Assembly: GCF_020687785.1 (NCBI RefSeq)
Contig: NZ_JAJEWI010000008.1
Span: 372,001-436,000, forward strand
Reading direction: 5' to 3'
DNA from: Sphingopyxis yananensis
GTDB taxonomy: Bacteria > Pseudomonadota > Alphaproteobacteria > Sphingomonadales > Sphingomonadaceae
DNA: 64,000 nt
This document shows positions 4,707 through 10,199 of this stretch, piece after piece. Below the pieces are notes generated by a model that searched no databases, was not told the origin of the DNA, and saw only the letters and a program-made list of their open reading frames with translations. A program made the position numbers and the translations under genes. Positions within the stretch are counted from its first letter, which is position 1. Every line of letters starts with the position of its first letter.

Positions 4707-6359
4707 TCAGTTGGTCCAGTAAATATAATCCTGCCCATCTTGCCACGGCGCATTGGATGGAACATCCAGCCGCACCGGTGCTTCGATCAAGCCGGGCCAC
4801 AAGGGCTGGGCCATGTCGCGGTTCTGCTGATCGATCATGGCCTGCAGCGCCGCCACCTTATCAGGCTGGGCCTGCGCCAAATTCCGCCTTTCCTGCGGAT
4901 CATCCGCCAGATTATAGAGGCGCTGCGATACAGGGCGTTTGGTGACATGCAATTTCCAATCCCCCTGACGCACAGCCCGATAATCGCCGGACCGCCAGAA
5001 CATCGCCTGCCGCTTGGGCGGCCCAGCCAGCACATTCTCGCTGTCCATCACGCGGTCCGTGGGCAGTTTTGCCCCCGCCGCCCCCGCAATCACAGCGAAC
5101 AGATCCAGATGACCTGCCAAATCTGACCGCCGCGTGCCTGCGGCAATTTGCGCGGGCCAGCGCATGAACAAGGGGGTGCGGATACCGCCATCATAAAATG
5201 TGGCCTTCCACCCGCGATAGGGCATATTCAGCCCCTCTATGCCCGTATACCAAGCGCCGCCATTGTCGCTGGTAAAAATAATCAGCGTATTATCGTCCAA
5301 TCCCAATTGCTTCACCTTGGCCATAAGGTCGCCGATACGCCGATCCATTTGGGCAATCATCGCCCCATAAACGCGGGTCTTATGGTCCTTTATATCCGAC
5401 AAAGCGTCATAATCCGCCTTGGTCGCCTGCAAGGGCGTATGCGGGGCATTAAACGCCAGATATAGGAAAAATGGTCGATTGCGATTCGCCTCAATCGCCT
5501 TCATCGCTTCCTCGGCCAGATAATCGGTCATATGTCCCCGCGCCGCGAAACGGGCGCTGCCATTAAAACTGACCGCGTGCCGCAAATTGGGCCATAAATA
5601 GCGATCAATAGGATCCCACGGCAGTCTGGCGTTCACCGCCTGTGGATCATCCACCGGCAGGAACATCGCGGCCCCCGCCAAAACCGCCAAGCTTTCGTCA
5701 AATCCTTGGGAATGGGGCTGCAAGGCTTGTGCCTCTCCTAGATGCCATTTTCCGATATGCACATTATGATAGCCTGCGGGTTTTAACGCCTCGGCAATCG
5801 TTACTTCGGATGCCGGCACCCCCATGTCGGCATAATCCAGCATGTCATCGGTCACGCGCTCGCCATGGTAAATGGTTTTCAGCGGTCCGACACCCGTGCC
5901 ATGGCCCACCGCCCGGGCAAAGCTGACGGGAACCGCCGTAAATTCAAACCCAAAGCGTGTGGGGTATCGCCCCGTCATCATGGCCGCACGGGATGGCGAA
6001 CAAGTGCCATTGGCAGCATAGGCGCTGGTAAAATTCACGCCTTCTTGGGCGATACGGTCAATATTCGGGGTCTGGACGCGGCCCCCCGCCACACCGCCGC
6101 CGTTCAAACTAATGTCATTCCATCCCAAATCATCCGCCACGATCAAGATGATATTGGGCCGTCGCTTGCCATCTTGGCGCGCGTCACCTTGACTGGGTGT
6201 TGCAGGCCCCGTCTGCCACGCAATGTCGCGGTTTGGCCCAACGGGGTCGCGCCAATCGCTGATCCAGCCCGGAATTTTATGTTTATTCTGATCAAAGGCC
6301 ACATAGCCCCCACCCAGCAGCAGCAAAACTGCTGCCAACCATATGGATTTTTGTCCCAT
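4707..6359 (-). CDS. Membrane-anchored type I sulfatase (formylglycine-dependent)
   Basis: Hydrolyses sulfate esters. The 550-residue protein opens with one hydrophobic segment (residues 6-22) without an obvious cleavage site, so it is probably exported and either cleaved or tethered. The alkaline-phosphatase-fold sulfatase motifs are present: metal-binding ADDLGW (D76, D77), the modification motif CSPSR with the cysteine to be converted to formylglycine at C120, GKWHLG, and SDNGG. The ATG at 6359 has AGGAGGGG six bases upstream; the longer frame to 6380 starts with TTG and lacks this support. A TetR gene is divergent and a formylglycine-generating enzyme lies 0.8 kb beyond it. The natural substrate (sulfated sugar, aryl or alkyl sulfate) cannot be read from sequence. 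Confidence 0.92.
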   Translation of the reverse strand: MGQKSIWLAAVLLLLGGGYVAFDQNKHKIPGWISDWRDPVGPNRDIAWQTGPATPSQGDARQDGKRRPNIILIVADDLGWNDISLNGGGVAGGRVQTPNIDRIAQEGVNFTSAYAANGTCSPSRAAMMTGRYPTRFGFEFTAVPVSFARAVGHGTGVGPLKTIYHGERVTDDMLDYADMGVPASEVTIAEALKPAGYHNVHIGKWHLGEAQALQPHSQGFDESLAVLAGAAMFLPVDDPQAVNARLPWDPIDRYLWPNLRHAVSFNGSARFAARGHMTDYLAEEAMKAIEANRNRPFFLYLAFNAPHTPLQATKADYDALSDIKDHKTRVYGAMIAQMDRRIGDLMAKVKQLGLDDNTLIIFTSDNGGAWYTGIEGLNMPYRGWKATFYDGGIRTPLFMRWPAQIAAGTRRSDLAGHLDLFAVIAGAAGAKLPTDRVMDSENVLAGPPKRQAMFWRSGDYRAVRQGDWKLHVTKRPVSQRLYNLADDPQERRNLAQAQPDKVAALQAMIDQQNRDMAQPLWPGLIEAPVRLDVPSNAPWQDGQDYIYWTN

Positions 6360-6402
6360 ATCTGTCCCCTCCTGCCCCAAAAAAGGATTTTTTAATTTTT
6401 AT

Positions 6403-6419
6403 TGGCACTATATGTGCCA
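6403..6419. promoter_or_regulatory. Palindromic operator candidate for the TetR regulator
   Basis: TGGCAC-TATAT-GTGCCA, perfect 6-bp arms with a 5-bp spacer, in the 131-bp gap between the sulfatase and the divergent TetR gene. Its position about 45 bp from the sulfatase start and about 70 bp from the TetR start fits control of both promoters. Binding by this TetR protein is inference. Confidence 0.55.
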
Positions 6420-6490
6420 CTATATTATTAAACACGCAAGATGACCTACTAGCCATTGACCAGCAGGGCCTGCTACGCCAGCAGGGCGGG

Positions 6491-7105
6491 ATGACAAGCA
6501 TGACGACCACGCCACCATTGGACCCAGCACTCACCGACGGTCGGCGTCAGCGCAGTCGGTCCAGCCGTCAACGCATTATCGATGCTATGATGTCCTTGAT
6601 GGCCAATGGGGAAATGAGCCCCAGCGCCGCCCGTGTCGCCGAAGAAGCAAAGGTTGGCTTGCGCACGGTCTTTCGGCATTTTGACGATATGGATGCCATT
6701 TATGCGGAAATATCCGCCATTTTGGCGAAACAATTGCTGCCCATCGCCATGGCCCCTTATCGTCACAGCGATTGGCGCGACAATGTGCGCGAATTGGCCC
6801 AGCGGCGCGTTCAAATCTTTGAAACGATGCTGCCCTTTCGCTTGGCAGCCAATGTTCGGCGTTATTCCTCGCCTTTTCTGATGGGCCAATATGCACAAAT
6901 TGTGAATTTGGAACGCGAGCTTTTGTTGCGACAAATCCCCGATCATGTGCGCAGTCATCGCCTGCGGACCGAAGCCATTTGCGCCGCACTGGCCTTTCAA
7001 AATTGGTCGTTGCTGCGCCATGATCAACAATTGACAGCCGAAGATGCCAGCACAACAACCATGTTGATGGTGGATTGCTTGATGCAATCCATATCGGAAC
7101 CATAA
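6491..7105 (+). CDS. TetR/AcrR-family transcriptional regulator
   Basis: A 204-residue one-component regulator. Residues 23-70 form the TetR helix-turn-helix (IIDAMMSLM, then AARVAEEAKVGLRTVFRHF with the usual RHF ending of the recognition helix). The C-terminal ligand domain is not assignable. It is transcribed away from the sulfatase and ends 32 bases before the formylglycine-generating enzyme gene, so it is probably co-transcribed with that gene and controls the whole module. An ATG at 6500 has GGGCGGG at a better distance than the ATG at 6491, so the true start may be three codons later. Confidence 0.88.
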   Translation: MTSMTTTPPLDPALTDGRRQRSRSSRQRIIDAMMSLMANGEMSPSAARVAEEAKVGLRTVFRHFDDMDAIYAEISAILAKQLLPIAMAPYRHSDWRDNVRELAQRRVQIFETMLPFRLAANVRRYSSPFLMGQYAQIVNLERELLLRQIPDHVRSHRLRTEAICAALAFQNWSLLRHDQQLTAEDASTTTMLMVDCLMQSISEP

Positions 7106-7137
7106 ATAGCCAAAAATTCGTCGGGGGAGGCGCATCA

Positions 7138-8124
7138 ATGTCTTGGGGGCAGAACAGAAAAACATGGCTGATGATGGGGACCGCCCTTTGTTTTGGGCTG
7201 ACGGCCTGTAGCGGCGGCGACACATCAGAATCACAAGCCGACACACGCCGCACAGCGACCAACGATGCAGCCCCGTGCCCTGCCCTAGACCCTGTGGAAT
7301 TTCGCTGGATCGCGGGCGGCACCTTGACCAAAGGCGATGACGCCCAATTGCCCGAAGAAAGCGGCCCCGCACGGGTCAAGCTGGCCGGTTTTTGGCTGGG
7401 CACCCATGAAGTCACACATAGCGAATTTTCCGAATTCATCCGCGCCACAGGCTATATCACCGTCGCGGAACGCAGCCCACCGCCCATGGCCGACGCCGCT
7501 GCCGACATGCAACAGCCCGGTTCAGCGGTGTTTACCATACCCGTCGATGGCAACCCCAATTGGTGGCGCTGGGTGGTGGGGGCGAATTGGCGGCAACCTA
7601 GCGGCCCCGCCGACAATCACCAGCCAGACCCCCGCGAACCCGTGGTTCAAATCGCTTATGACGATGCCTTGGCTTATGCAAAATGGCGCGGCATGGCGCT
7701 GCCCAGCGAAGATCAATGGGAATGGGCGGCGCGCAGCGGCGGGGCCAACCCCGACGCCCCGCCCAGCAAAGCCGCCAATGTCTATCAAGGCAGCTTTCCA
7801 TTTAACGACAAAGGCAGCGACGGCTTCACCGGCCGCGCGCCCGTCGGATGCTTTCCCGCCGATAAAAATGGCATTTACGATCTGATTGGCAATGTCTGGG
7901 AATGGACGGTGGATGTTGCAGATCGGGCAGATGCGGCATCCCCAGCGGCGGAACGACAAAATGTCATCAAGGGAGGCAGCTTTCTATGCGCGTCCAATTA
8001 TTGCGCCCGATACCGCCCCGCAGCGCGGCAATTTCAGGAACGTAGCTTGGGCACCGACCATATTGGTTTCCGTTTAATCGACCCGACGCGCCCGCCCCCG
8101 CCCCAGTCGCCGCCGACGCCGTAA
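7138..8124 (+). CDS. Lipoprotein formylglycine-generating enzyme (sulfatase maturase, SUMF1/FGE family)
   Basis: FGE oxidises the cysteine of a CxPxR motif in type I sulfatases to formylglycine, using O2 and copper. The 328-residue protein has a lipoprotein signal (GLTAC, lipidated C24), so it should be anchored in the envelope. The family core is clear: GTHEVTHSEF, ALPSEDQWEWAARSG, NVWEWT, then GGSFLCASNYCARYRPAAR with two cysteines, C284 and C289, at the positions of the catalytic pair of human and bacterial FGE. That separates it from redox-inactive relatives such as PvdO or EgtB. GGGGGAGG lies seven bases before the ATG. It sits between two sulfatase genes with CSPSR and CAPTR motifs, its likely substrates. 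Its 3' end overlaps the opposing sulfatase by 51 bp. Confidence 0.9.
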   Translation: MSWGQNRKTWLMMGTALCFGLTACSGGDTSESQADTRRTATNDAAPCPALDPVEFRWIAGGTLTKGDDAQLPEESGPARVKLAGFWLGTHEVTHSEFSEFIRATGYITVAERSPPPMADAAADMQQPGSAVFTIPVDGNPNWWRWVVGANWRQPSGPADNHQPDPREPVVQIAYDDALAYAKWRGMALPSEDQWEWAARSGGANPDAPPSKAANVYQGSFPFNDKGSDGFTGRAPVGCFPADKNGIYDLIGNVWEWTVDVADRADAASPAAERQNVIKGGSFLCASNYCARYRPAARQFQERSLGTDHIGFRLIDPTRPPPPQSPPTP

Positions 8125-10077
8125 GACCAGAACCGTCGCAGCCCCCGCCGCAATCAACAGCAGCAGCGCCCCCGCAAAAATCCATGGCCGCGCACCCTGC
8201 CGCCGCATGGCATATAGGTTGATCTGGTCGTCGGCATTATAGCCCTCCGGCATATCCAACACGCCATTGACTTTGGCATAAGCACGATAATCAGCCAGCA
8301 TGGCTTGGTAGATATGCGGTTCTTTGGCGATCAAATTTTGGGTTTCACCGGGGTCCTGCATCAAATTATACAAGGCCCACATCCCGTTTCCGGTGGGCGG
8401 CAAATTGCGGACCAGCTTATAATCCCCGCGAAACAATGCGCTGTTCCCCGACAATTCATATCCCAATGGATTATCGCCATGGACGCTGGATGTGCCGCCT
8501 TGCAGCATCGGGACCAATGTGCGGCCGGTGACCGCTTCGACGCTGCGCCCCTGCCACGCGCCGCCATGCACGGGCACGCCGGCCAAGTCCGCGATCGTCG
8601 GCAACAGGTCGGTCACATGGGCAAAGCCTTTGGCAATGACCCCCTGCCCCATCGACGCGCGCTGGGCCGCGCCCGCCCAATGCACAATCAAAGGCACGCG
8701 CAACCCGCCCTCTGCCGCGCTAAACTTATACCCCCGCAGCGGTGACGCCGCCGCCGATGCCCAGCTTGGCCCAATGGCGATCATACTGCCGCGCCGCCCA
8801 ATATTGTTCAGGCTATTGTCCAATTGGGCATTTAAAAACAGGCGGTTTCGCAGGCGGCTATAAGGGTCTGTCGGCTCTGCCCCATTGTCCGACAGGAAAA
8901 TGATGATGCTATTGTCATATTCGCCAATCGCCTTCAAATGCGCGATTAAACGGCCAATTTCACGGTCCATCGCCGTGGCCATGGCGGCATAGGCTTGCAT
9001 TTCCCGCGATGCTCGATCCCGCTGCGAATCGCTCAGCTGCGCCCAATTGCGCGTCGTCGCCATATGCACGGGGGTGATATTCGCTGGCACCAAGCCCAAT
9101 TCCGCCGCCCGTTTGGCCCGCGCCGCGCGTAGCTTGTCCCACCCGTCCAGATAATGCCCGCGATAACGGGCCAAGTCAGCATCGGGGGCCTGTATCGGTA
9201 TATGGTTCGCCAGAAAATTGACCGACGCGAAAAATGGCTTGGCGGGCCCGTCTTGGCGACCTTGGTCAATATATTCGATCATCTTGTCGACCAAAAATCG
9301 CGAGGAATAATAATTTTTCGGCAAGGTCGCAGGACGGCCATTTTCCAACCACGCCGCATGGCGCGACAGGCCGGTGATCGGTTTTTGTTCAAAATTATCA
9401 GCGCCCGCATCATCCAGCGAAAAGGCCCGATCATATCCGCGTGCATGGGGCAAGCGTTTCGCGTCGCTGCCCAAATGCCATTTTCCGGTGAAATAGGTTC
9501 GATATCCCGACGCCCGCAACATATCCGCCAGCGTCACCACCCGCAGGTTCATCACCGTGTCATAACCGGCCTTGCCCACATGTTCGTCGGGAATGGTTTC
9601 CGCCATATTCCCCAAACCATTGCGGTGGTTCATCACGCCTGTTTGCAGCATGGCGCGCGTCGGGGCGCAGGATCCCGCCACATGGAAATTGGAAAAACGC
9701 ACGCCATTATAGGCCAATTGATCAAGATTGGGGGTAGCGATTTCCGCGCCAAAGGCCCCGACATCGCTATAGCCCCAATCATCGGCCACCAACAAAATGA
9801 CATTGGGTGCGCGCGCGCTTCCTGTCCGGCTCTGCCCGTCAGTCTTGATTTGGGCGGTGACCGCGATGGGCAAGACCAAATATAGGCCCAGCACAAGCGC
9901 GACTATCCGTCGCATCATCGCCAAAATATATTGCTGCATCATAGACAAGCGGGAGGCAGCGCGCTGATCCGCCCTTCGGACCTGATCTGCCCGATAGCAT
10001 TGATCTGCATTGCGGTGTAGATCTGCGTTATGGCGCAGATCATATTCGCTCGGCTTTGCGCGCGCTGCCATCACCAT
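8074..10077 (-). CDS. Second membrane-anchored type I sulfatase, with C-terminal TM anchor
   Basis: A 667-residue sulfatase with PNVILLVADDWGYSD (metal ligands), CAPTR with the formylglycine cysteine at C137, GKWHLGS and LSDNGAEP. The N terminus is unusual: GGAGG precedes an ATG at 10077 (a further ATG is at 10071), followed by a polar stretch with hexapeptide repeats and only then a hydrophobic segment (residues 58-74). If translation instead began at 9942 the protein would start directly before that segment, but no ribosome-binding site is visible there. A second hydrophobic helix near residues 632-652 is followed by an arginine-rich tail, so the C terminus should be cytoplasmic and the catalytic domain periplasmic. 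It diverges from a dehydratase gene. Substrate unknown. Confidence 0.9.
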   Translation of the reverse strand: MVMAARAKPSEYDLRHNADLHRNADQCYRADQVRRADQRAASRLSMMQQYILAMMRRIVALVLGLYLVLPIAVTAQIKTDGQSRTGSARAPNVILLVADDWGYSDVGAFGAEIATPNLDQLAYNGVRFSNFHVAGSCAPTRAMLQTGVMNHRNGLGNMAETIPDEHVGKAGYDTVMNLRVVTLADMLRASGYRTYFTGKWHLGSDAKRLPHARGYDRAFSLDDAGADNFEQKPITGLSRHAAWLENGRPATLPKNYYSSRFLVDKMIEYIDQGRQDGPAKPFFASVNFLANHIPIQAPDADLARYRGHYLDGWDKLRAARAKRAAELGLVPANITPVHMATTRNWAQLSDSQRDRASREMQAYAAMATAMDREIGRLIAHLKAIGEYDNSIIIFLSDNGAEPTDPYSRLRNRLFLNAQLDNSLNNIGRRGSMIAIGPSWASAAASPLRGYKFSAAEGGLRVPLIVHWAGAAQRASMGQGVIAKGFAHVTDLLPTIADLAGVPVHGGAWQGRSVEAVTGRTLVPMLQGGTSSVHGDNPLGYELSGNSALFRGDYKLVRNLPPTGNGMWALYNLMQDPGETQNLIAKEPHIYQAMLADYRAYAKVNGVLDMPEGYNADDQINLYAMRRQGARPWIFAGALLLLIAAGAATVLVLRRRRRLGRGRARRVD
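9966..10055. repeat. Five-unit 18-bp repeat encoding ADQxxR hexapeptides
   Basis: GATC(T/C)GC-headed units begin at 9966, 9984, 10002, 10020 and 10038, exactly 18 bp apart; the last is degenerate. On the minus strand they encode YDLRHN-ADLHRN-ADQCYR-ADQVRR-ADQRAA at the N terminus of the second sulfatase, between the ribosome-binding site and the signal anchor. Confidence 0.75.
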
Positions 10078-10199
10078 TCCCCCCTCCGTCGGGAATCAAT
10101 TGACACTTGCTATGCCATATCATTCCGTCAAGCAATGTCTTTCCGCCATAATGCAAGTGGCAGGTGACAAAGGCTTGGGGAACGTGCTTATTCCAACGC

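Follow-up and report, generated by a model that had tools for sequence, protein, structure and literature searches.

At which point in the cell does an exported bacterial sulfatase receive its formylglycine? The question is raised by a block of four genes (positions 4707–10077) in the window, a 64-kb stretch of DNA from Sphingopyxis yananensis (contig C3:372001–436000 of a 3.2 Mb genome). Sulfatase A (-), a TetR-like gene (+), a gene for a formylglycine-generating enzyme (FGE; +), and sulfatase B (-) follow one another in this order. We consider it probable that the block encodes a repressor-controlled unit for desulfation in the cell envelope, with formylglycine formed in the periplasm. The first-pass annotation had described two type I sulfatases, a TetR gene, and a lipoprotein FGE, and this four-gene observation is confirmed: all four genes are present and their motifs are intact. 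The A gene and the TetR-like gene are divergent, with a short intergenic region between them; 32 bp separate the stop of the TetR-like gene from the start of the FGE gene; and the FGE and B genes are convergent and share 51 bp.

The FGE gene encodes a full-length PF03781 domain (191.7 bits against a cut-off of 23.3, profile positions 7–254 of 255), which matches the structure of human FGE. Its cysteine pair, C284/C289, is intact and aligns with the two cysteines of GGSYMCHRSYC in the human structure, and the C-x4-C arrangement (GG[ST]xxCxxxxC) was invariant across 15 exported FGEs that were aligned. The N-terminus, MSWGQNRKTWLMMGTALCFGLTAC-S, is a lipoprotein signal, in which the lipobox LTAC (residues 21–24) is preceded by a basic n-region and a hydrophobic stretch. 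The protein does not, therefore, fit the description of prokaryotic FGEs as cytosolic and signal-less. In E. coli, a serine at position +2 of a lipoprotein indicates the outer membrane, a rule that may differ in sphingomonads; by analogy, the serine at +2 of the FGE suggests an outer membrane location. A lipobox was found in 29 of the 30 FGE loci retrieved by the family search (best match per genome, window included), and the remaining one carries a plain signal. Signals were called by a home-made rule rather than by SignalP, and start codons were picked by the same rule. The rule was slightly revised between this count and a survey of 80 named loci described below; on control sets of our own choosing, the revised rule found no signal in 22 of 23 cytosolic window genes, called the other one exported, and missed one of seven exported controls. 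An AlphaFold model of the FGE was set aside (mean pLDDT 69, residues 280–288 below 50).

Both sulfatases combine a PF00884 domain (E 5e-56 for A and 7e-57 for B) with the C-x-P-x-R motif of S1 sulfatases, which reads CSPSR at 5988–6002 in A and CAPTR at 9655–9669 in B. The conserved DD, the K/H of GKWH, H, DN, and K, which we take to be the metal and sulfate ligands of S1 sulfatases, were located in both proteins by alignment to 9hh3 and 1hdh. The nearest solved sequence of A is 9hh3 (S1_19, E 1e-75), and 6prm, presumably an S1_19 carrageenan sulfatase, is also among the best Protein Data Bank (PDB) sequences; that of B is the arylsulfatase of Pseudomonas aeruginosa (1HDH, E 2e-122), which covers residues 89–608 of the 667-residue frame. 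These likenesses say little about the substrate. After start correction, the likeliest start of A is 6359, and an N-terminal hydrophobic anchor that looks uncleaved is present in all 21 A-type proteins listed (window included). B may start at 10071, with a GGAGGGGGG run 7–15 nt upstream, or at 9915–9942. The longer start would place a long N-terminus before the hydrophobic stretch, with repeated RADQ/NADQ-like units (9942–10071, -). At its other end, B has a hydrophobic helix (residues 634–650, mean Kyte–Doolittle value 2.54), which is shared by 16 of the 20 listed B-type proteins, that of the window among them. The prediction that A and B are membrane-anchored with periplasmic catalytic domains is well supported. 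Together with the FGE lipobox, these anchors bear out, as a prediction, the earlier proposal that all catalytic parts are tethered on the periplasmic side.

The gene set is conserved in other genomes, as the earlier proposal required. A sample of 199 family genomes was searched, and matches were counted at E 1e-30 (FGE), 1e-60 (A and B), and 1e-12 (TetR), which gave 77 for FGE, 56 for B, 29 for A, and 33 for TetR. All four lie within 10 kb of one another in 12 of the 199 genomes (G000, G042, G122, G012, G137, G192, G106, G001, G095, G157, G150, and G085), whereas three of the four occur together in G181, G198, G151, G185, G047, and G167; in G180, all four are inside 12 kb. The FGE has its best named relatives in Sphingopyxis, Erythrobacter, and other Sphingomonadales, and in two named Sphingopyxis loci (L192 and L194) the FGE gene is flanked by A and B. 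Since the set recurs in other genera, it reflects more than chance, although the relatives are not phylogenetically independent cases in these counts, and some of the loci are closely related to one another. A plasmid origin was considered and rejected: nothing in a plasmid collection closely matched the module at the DNA level, and the FGE protein matches in it were all less than 60% identical. Small, partly membrane-type proteins also recur around the module (L042 8050–9137; L046 3659–4129 and 7534–8223); the four that were scanned (clusters c9, c10, c11, and c15) gave no Pfam match.

Relatives also bear on which enzyme matures the sulfatases. The lipoprotein FGE is the sole PF03781 match in five of 22 module-type genomes (G181, G137, G192, G185, and G167), and in four more (G042, G180, G142, and G047) the one further match lacks the cysteine pair. 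The remaining 13 have true further FGEs (G000, G198, and G150), a signal-less FGE instead (G020), or other matches that were read partly or not at all; split further PF03781 matches among these 13 look EgtB-like. The radical-SAM sulfatase maturase anSME did not exceed the cut-off in any of the 22 genomes, with sub-threshold matches in four, and gave no match at E 0.001 in the nine genomes in which the lipoprotein FGE stands alone or beside a match without the cysteine pair. The lipoprotein FGE is thus, by these profile searches, the only formylglycine-forming enzyme of a known kind found in these nine relatives.

The TetR-like protein scored 21.7 bits with PF00440, below the cut-off of 24; its length and an associated palindrome fit the TetR family. 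Where a TetR homologue is in the locus, 17 of 51 regions upstream of A or B contain the strict palindrome pattern (TGRCAY-N5-RTGYCA); where it is not, none of 15 do. In 32 loci with TetR, we found 51 sites, as opposed to none for the reversed pattern, and 43 of the 51 lie near the start of an open reading frame, compared with 13.6% of random positions. Over all loci checked, 33 with TetR held 51 sites and 143 without it held three (2.1 Mb). At the level of whole genomes, 2–15 sites were present in 12 genomes with TetR (reversed pattern 0–3) and 0–9 in 12 without (control 0–4); in G042 the module accounts for two sites out of four, and in G122 for two out of five. The genome of the window has 12 sites (control 1), of which two are at the module and one is at the start of a DsbA-like gene, presumably for a 2-hydroxychromene-2-carboxylate isomerase-like protein, followed by an alpha/beta hydrolase gene. 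In relatives, the palindrome also precedes genes for alpha/beta hydrolase, glutathione S-transferase (GST), metallo-beta-lactamase (MBL)-fold hydrolase, oxidoreductase, and DUF1330 proteins and a TonB receptor (two sites). Several counts weigh against this regulatory assignment. With up to two mismatches, the 64-kb window contains six palindromes against 5.2 expected; because there is no enrichment here, the case rests on the relatives. The strict pattern is missing from 34 of the 51 upstream regions, and since the degenerate pattern was fixed after sites had been seen at largely the same A and B regions, the 17 matches are partly circular; this applies less to sites at other genes. Nine of the 12 sites in the genome of the window look unrelated: seven fall within reading frames, one of them 235 bp ahead of a further sulfatase, and two precede unrelated genes. 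On balance, the palindrome shared by A, B, and the relatives upholds, as a prediction, the earlier assignment of the TetR protein as regulator of the set.

In the mechanism that we infer from these genes, motifs, anchors, and sites, the TetR-like protein would bind the 17-bp palindrome at the promoters of A, of TetR-FGE, and of B, and an inducer, probably a sulfate ester or its product, would release it. A and B would be exported unfolded via Sec and would then remain anchored in the inner membrane, their catalytic domains lying in the periplasm, where the exported lipoprotein FGE would turn their active-site cysteine into formylglycine, as the animal FGE does in the endoplasmic reticulum (ER). 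The ester would be desulfated in the periplasm, and the product would enter the cell for intracellular enzymes. Because GST-, isomerase-, and hydrolase-type genes share the palindrome, the data suggest that a small hydrophobic or aromatic sulfate ester fits better than a polysaccharide. The earlier view that this is not a polysaccharide utilisation locus, which would combine SusC/SusD with glycosidases or lyases, agrees with our scan: among 18 flanking proteins, none matched SusD or a glycosidase over the cut-off, and one GH43 match below the cut-off lies about 9 kb past the window edge (L001:9919–10500). A polysaccharide locus was accordingly set aside.

It is unlikely, in our judgement, that A and B are instead matured in the cytoplasm by other FGEs, the lipoprotein FGE being redundant or acting elsewhere; a number of findings nevertheless point that way and count against periplasmic maturation. 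The genome of the window encodes three FGEs and nine sulfatases, and the two other FGEs (L002 and L003) have the cysteine pair and no signal sequence, so that sole dependence of A and B on the lipoprotein FGE cannot be assumed here. The linked FGE of the earlier reading is borne out as a prediction; the phrase "its own maturase" calls for caution. A second block of sulfatase, FGE, sulfatase, and TonB receptor-like genes lies at about 270–277 kb of contig C1 (L002 9956–16854), with a signal-less FGE and one Tat-like sulfatase. Among the genomes with a lone lipoprotein FGE, G137, G192, and G042 each have one Cys-type sulfatase without a visible signal, and Tat-like signals, read by eye, were seen on two Cys-type sulfatases in G047 and one in G074, which is outside the nine and whose other FGE-type match was not read. 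E. coli matures some Cys-type sulfatases without FGE, and for this reason the exceptions are not fatal, yet they count against a strict rule. The pairing of addresses is similarly mixed. Where a Cys-type sulfatase lies within 1.5 kb, the nearest one is of the Sec type for 14 of 17 exported and 14 of 22 cytosolic FGEs in the family set (p 0.29), and for 23 of 26 exported and 6 of 14 cytosolic FGEs in the named set (p 0.007); for this table, FGE-domain matches without the cysteine pair were dropped (93 to 89 family, 80 to 75 named), and FGEs without such a neighbor (49 of 89 family, 35 of 75 named) and one family FGE called Tat were omitted. Cytosolic FGEs thus often adjoin Sec-type sulfatases, and the match of FGE and sulfatase addresses, significant in the named set only, is suggestive only. 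A strict rule, by which exported FGEs serve only Sec sulfatases and cytosolic FGEs only others, was rejected on the family result and the exceptions. The FGE lipobox and the membrane helix of B also co-vary in raw counts (18/3 vs. 6/17, p 9e-5); the tree provides three to four independent pairs, none in the expected direction, and this co-variation was likewise rejected. In L101, L105, L106, and L110, B relatives without the C-terminal helix pair with FGEs without a lipobox, an observation to which the tree-aware test lends no support. Against cytoplasmic maturation stand the linkage of the lipoprotein FGE to the set in 12 genomes, its position as the only FGE found in nine relatives, and the lack of an anSME match over the cut-off in the 22 genomes, and we favor periplasmic formation of formylglycine.

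Three further alternatives concern the purpose, the supply, and the control of the set. Pseudomonad arylsulfatase operons serve sulfur scavenging under sulfate starvation, and B is a relative of the P. aeruginosa arylsulfatase; a unit of that kind, induced by sulfate starvation and freeing sulfate from many esters rather than providing a carbon source, appears doubtful to us here, since two features speak for a catabolic set with a specific substrate: a regulator of the TetR type that has its own palindrome, and the GST, hydrolase, oxidoreductase, and DUF1330 genes that lie behind that palindrome in relatives. The first-pass annotation had also included the neighboring TonB receptor (3–2393, -) in a dedicated system. 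This receptor lies outside the four-gene block, 2.3 kb from A, and in other genera a different TonB receptor beside A does bear the palindrome (two sites in L046, one in L045). However, between the window receptor and A lies an M1 peptidase gene on the opposite strand. The receptor gene has no palindrome, so that co-regulation with the sulfatases is not indicated by the sequence, and in local matches the receptor is only 24–35% identical to TonB receptors of the compared loci, module ones included. It more likely belongs with the two secreted amidohydrolases that follow it; receptor and amidohydrolases (3–2393, - and L001 15199–18622, -) probably form a separate uptake unit. We dropped it as a part of the system, and its import of the ester for A and B is very unlikely. 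The receptor gene contains an in-frame 189-bp tandem duplication (861–1238, -; 63 residues, copies 99–100% identical), either a recent event or an assembly artefact. In L046 (12494–12535, genome G151), two palindromes 25 bp apart are located upstream of the TonB receptor beside A, which makes that receptor the best candidate importer. As for control, TGGCAC-N5-TGC resembles the -24/-12 consensus of sigma-54 promoters, which could make the palindrome a sigma-54-like promoter or a general site. This reading is most improbable: the half sites vary symmetrically (TGACAC...GTGTCA is also found), and the sites track the TetR gene in the locus counts given above. A TetR-like repressor acting on an envelope desulfation set thus remains the explanation that we prefer.

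How widely does this arrangement extend? The best 80 of at least 574 confirmed named FGE loci were surveyed, and many FGEs with the cysteine pair among them have signal peptides, lipoboxes, or signal anchors. These exported-type FGEs are from Alpha-, Beta-, and Gammaproteobacteria, Cyanobacteria, Bacteroidota, and Myxococcota, whereas others of the 80, such as those of Nocardia and Mycobacterium, have no signal. By the pattern used, the pair is missing from five of the 80, of which three are from Algoriphagus (L217, L220, and L222); the latter are lipoprotein FGE-like proteins without C-x4-C as written and may have a different function or a variant motif. On a FastTree phylogeny of 164 FGEs (84 exported and 80 not), the label changes nine times, as compared with 53–58 times in five listed shuffles. 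The FGE address is inherited in large clades; the number of origins is outside what the tree tells. We lean, with some reserve, towards a wider conclusion: many bacteria may form formylglycine outside the cytoplasm, by exported and often tethered FGEs that belong to a few large clades, act after translocation on Sec-exported sulfatases, and in some genomes are the sole formylglycine former. This would be a bacterial counterpart of the ER system, placed here in a TetR regulon.

According to PMC3920027, Cys-type sulfatases are typically cytosolic. Exported sulfatases are not new, as periplasmic sulfatases in Bacteroides are described in PMC10154612, and exported FGE-fold proteins of other function are known as well. 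Our literature searches on FGE location and substrate found no description of a catalytic FGE as an exported lipoprotein, which is weak evidence of absence because most subscription journals were outside their coverage; within that coverage, the exported catalytic FGE is the new element. A conserved lipoprotein FGE, with no other FGE found in some genomes, makes the place where bacteria form formylglycine directly testable. It also bears on the copper-dependent chemistry of FGE in an oxidising compartment and on the making of active sulfatases in the periplasm, and the palindrome would offer a ready reporter for the natural sulfate ester.

Features of the sulfatase–FGE block, in window coordinates
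Feature	Position	Strand	Basis
Sulfatase A, S1 Cys-type, N-terminal signal anchor	4707..6359	-	PF00884; best PDB sequences 9hh3/6prm; CSPSR; anchor in relatives
Palindrome TGGCACTATATGTGCCA, proposed operator between A and TetR-FGE	6403..6419	.	Motif comparison across relatives
TetR-like regulator gene, first of the TetR-FGE pair	6491..7105	+	PF00440 below cut-off; adjoins other module genes in relatives
Lipoprotein FGE	7138..8124	+	PF03781 E 2e-56; human FGE structure 2aii E 5e-48
FGE lipobox LTAC, lipid-bearing Cys24, +2 residue Ser	7198..7209	+	Signal rule, sequence reading
FGE Cys pair C284-x4-C289	7987..8004	+	Alignment to human FGE structure; 15 exported FGEs
Sulfatase B, S1 Cys-type, signal sequence	8074..10071	-	PF00884; 1hdh; CAPTR
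C-terminal membrane helix of sulfatase B	8122..8172	-	Hydrophobicity; 16/20 B-type proteins listed
Second palindrome TGACACTTGCTATGCCA, 24 bp before the reading frame of B (10077)	10101..10117	.	Motif comparison across relatives

The module resembles several known systems in part. The S1_19 carrageenan sulfatases (9hh3 and 6prm) are the nearest solved sequences of A, which is here predicted to be membrane-anchored and is flanked by no SusD or glycosidase over the cut-off among the proteins scanned. B matches the P. aeruginosa arylsulfatase (PAS/AtsA) over residues 89–608; PAS is cytosolic, whereas a signal sequence and a C-terminal membrane helix are present in B. The sulfate-ester locus sft/ats of Pseudomonas putida combines uptake through the TonB receptor SftP with a sulfatase, a likeness in general design; by description only, it is set apart by its regulator type and by the exported FGE and membrane anchoring of the present module.

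Exported or lipoprotein FGE-like domains with other functions also occur in PorK/GldK and OCTIN. The window FGE keeps both cysteines, in contrast to the FGE-domain proteins with extra domains that lack the catalytic cysteines according to PMC5915273. With the cytosolic FGEs of Streptomyces coelicolor and Mycobacterium tuberculosis, it shares PF03781 and C-x4-C, and aerobic formation of formylglycine would be expected; PMC4505483 assigns the FGE of prokaryotes to the reducing cytosol, whereas the FGE of this module is predicted to be exported. Human SUMF1/FGE, which resides in the ER, belongs to the same family, has the same cysteine pair, and acts outside the cytosol on Sec-exported Cys-type sulfatases, as the predicted location suggests for the window FGE. 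In this module, the role would be filled instead by a bacterial lipoprotein whose gene is linked to those of two sulfatases.

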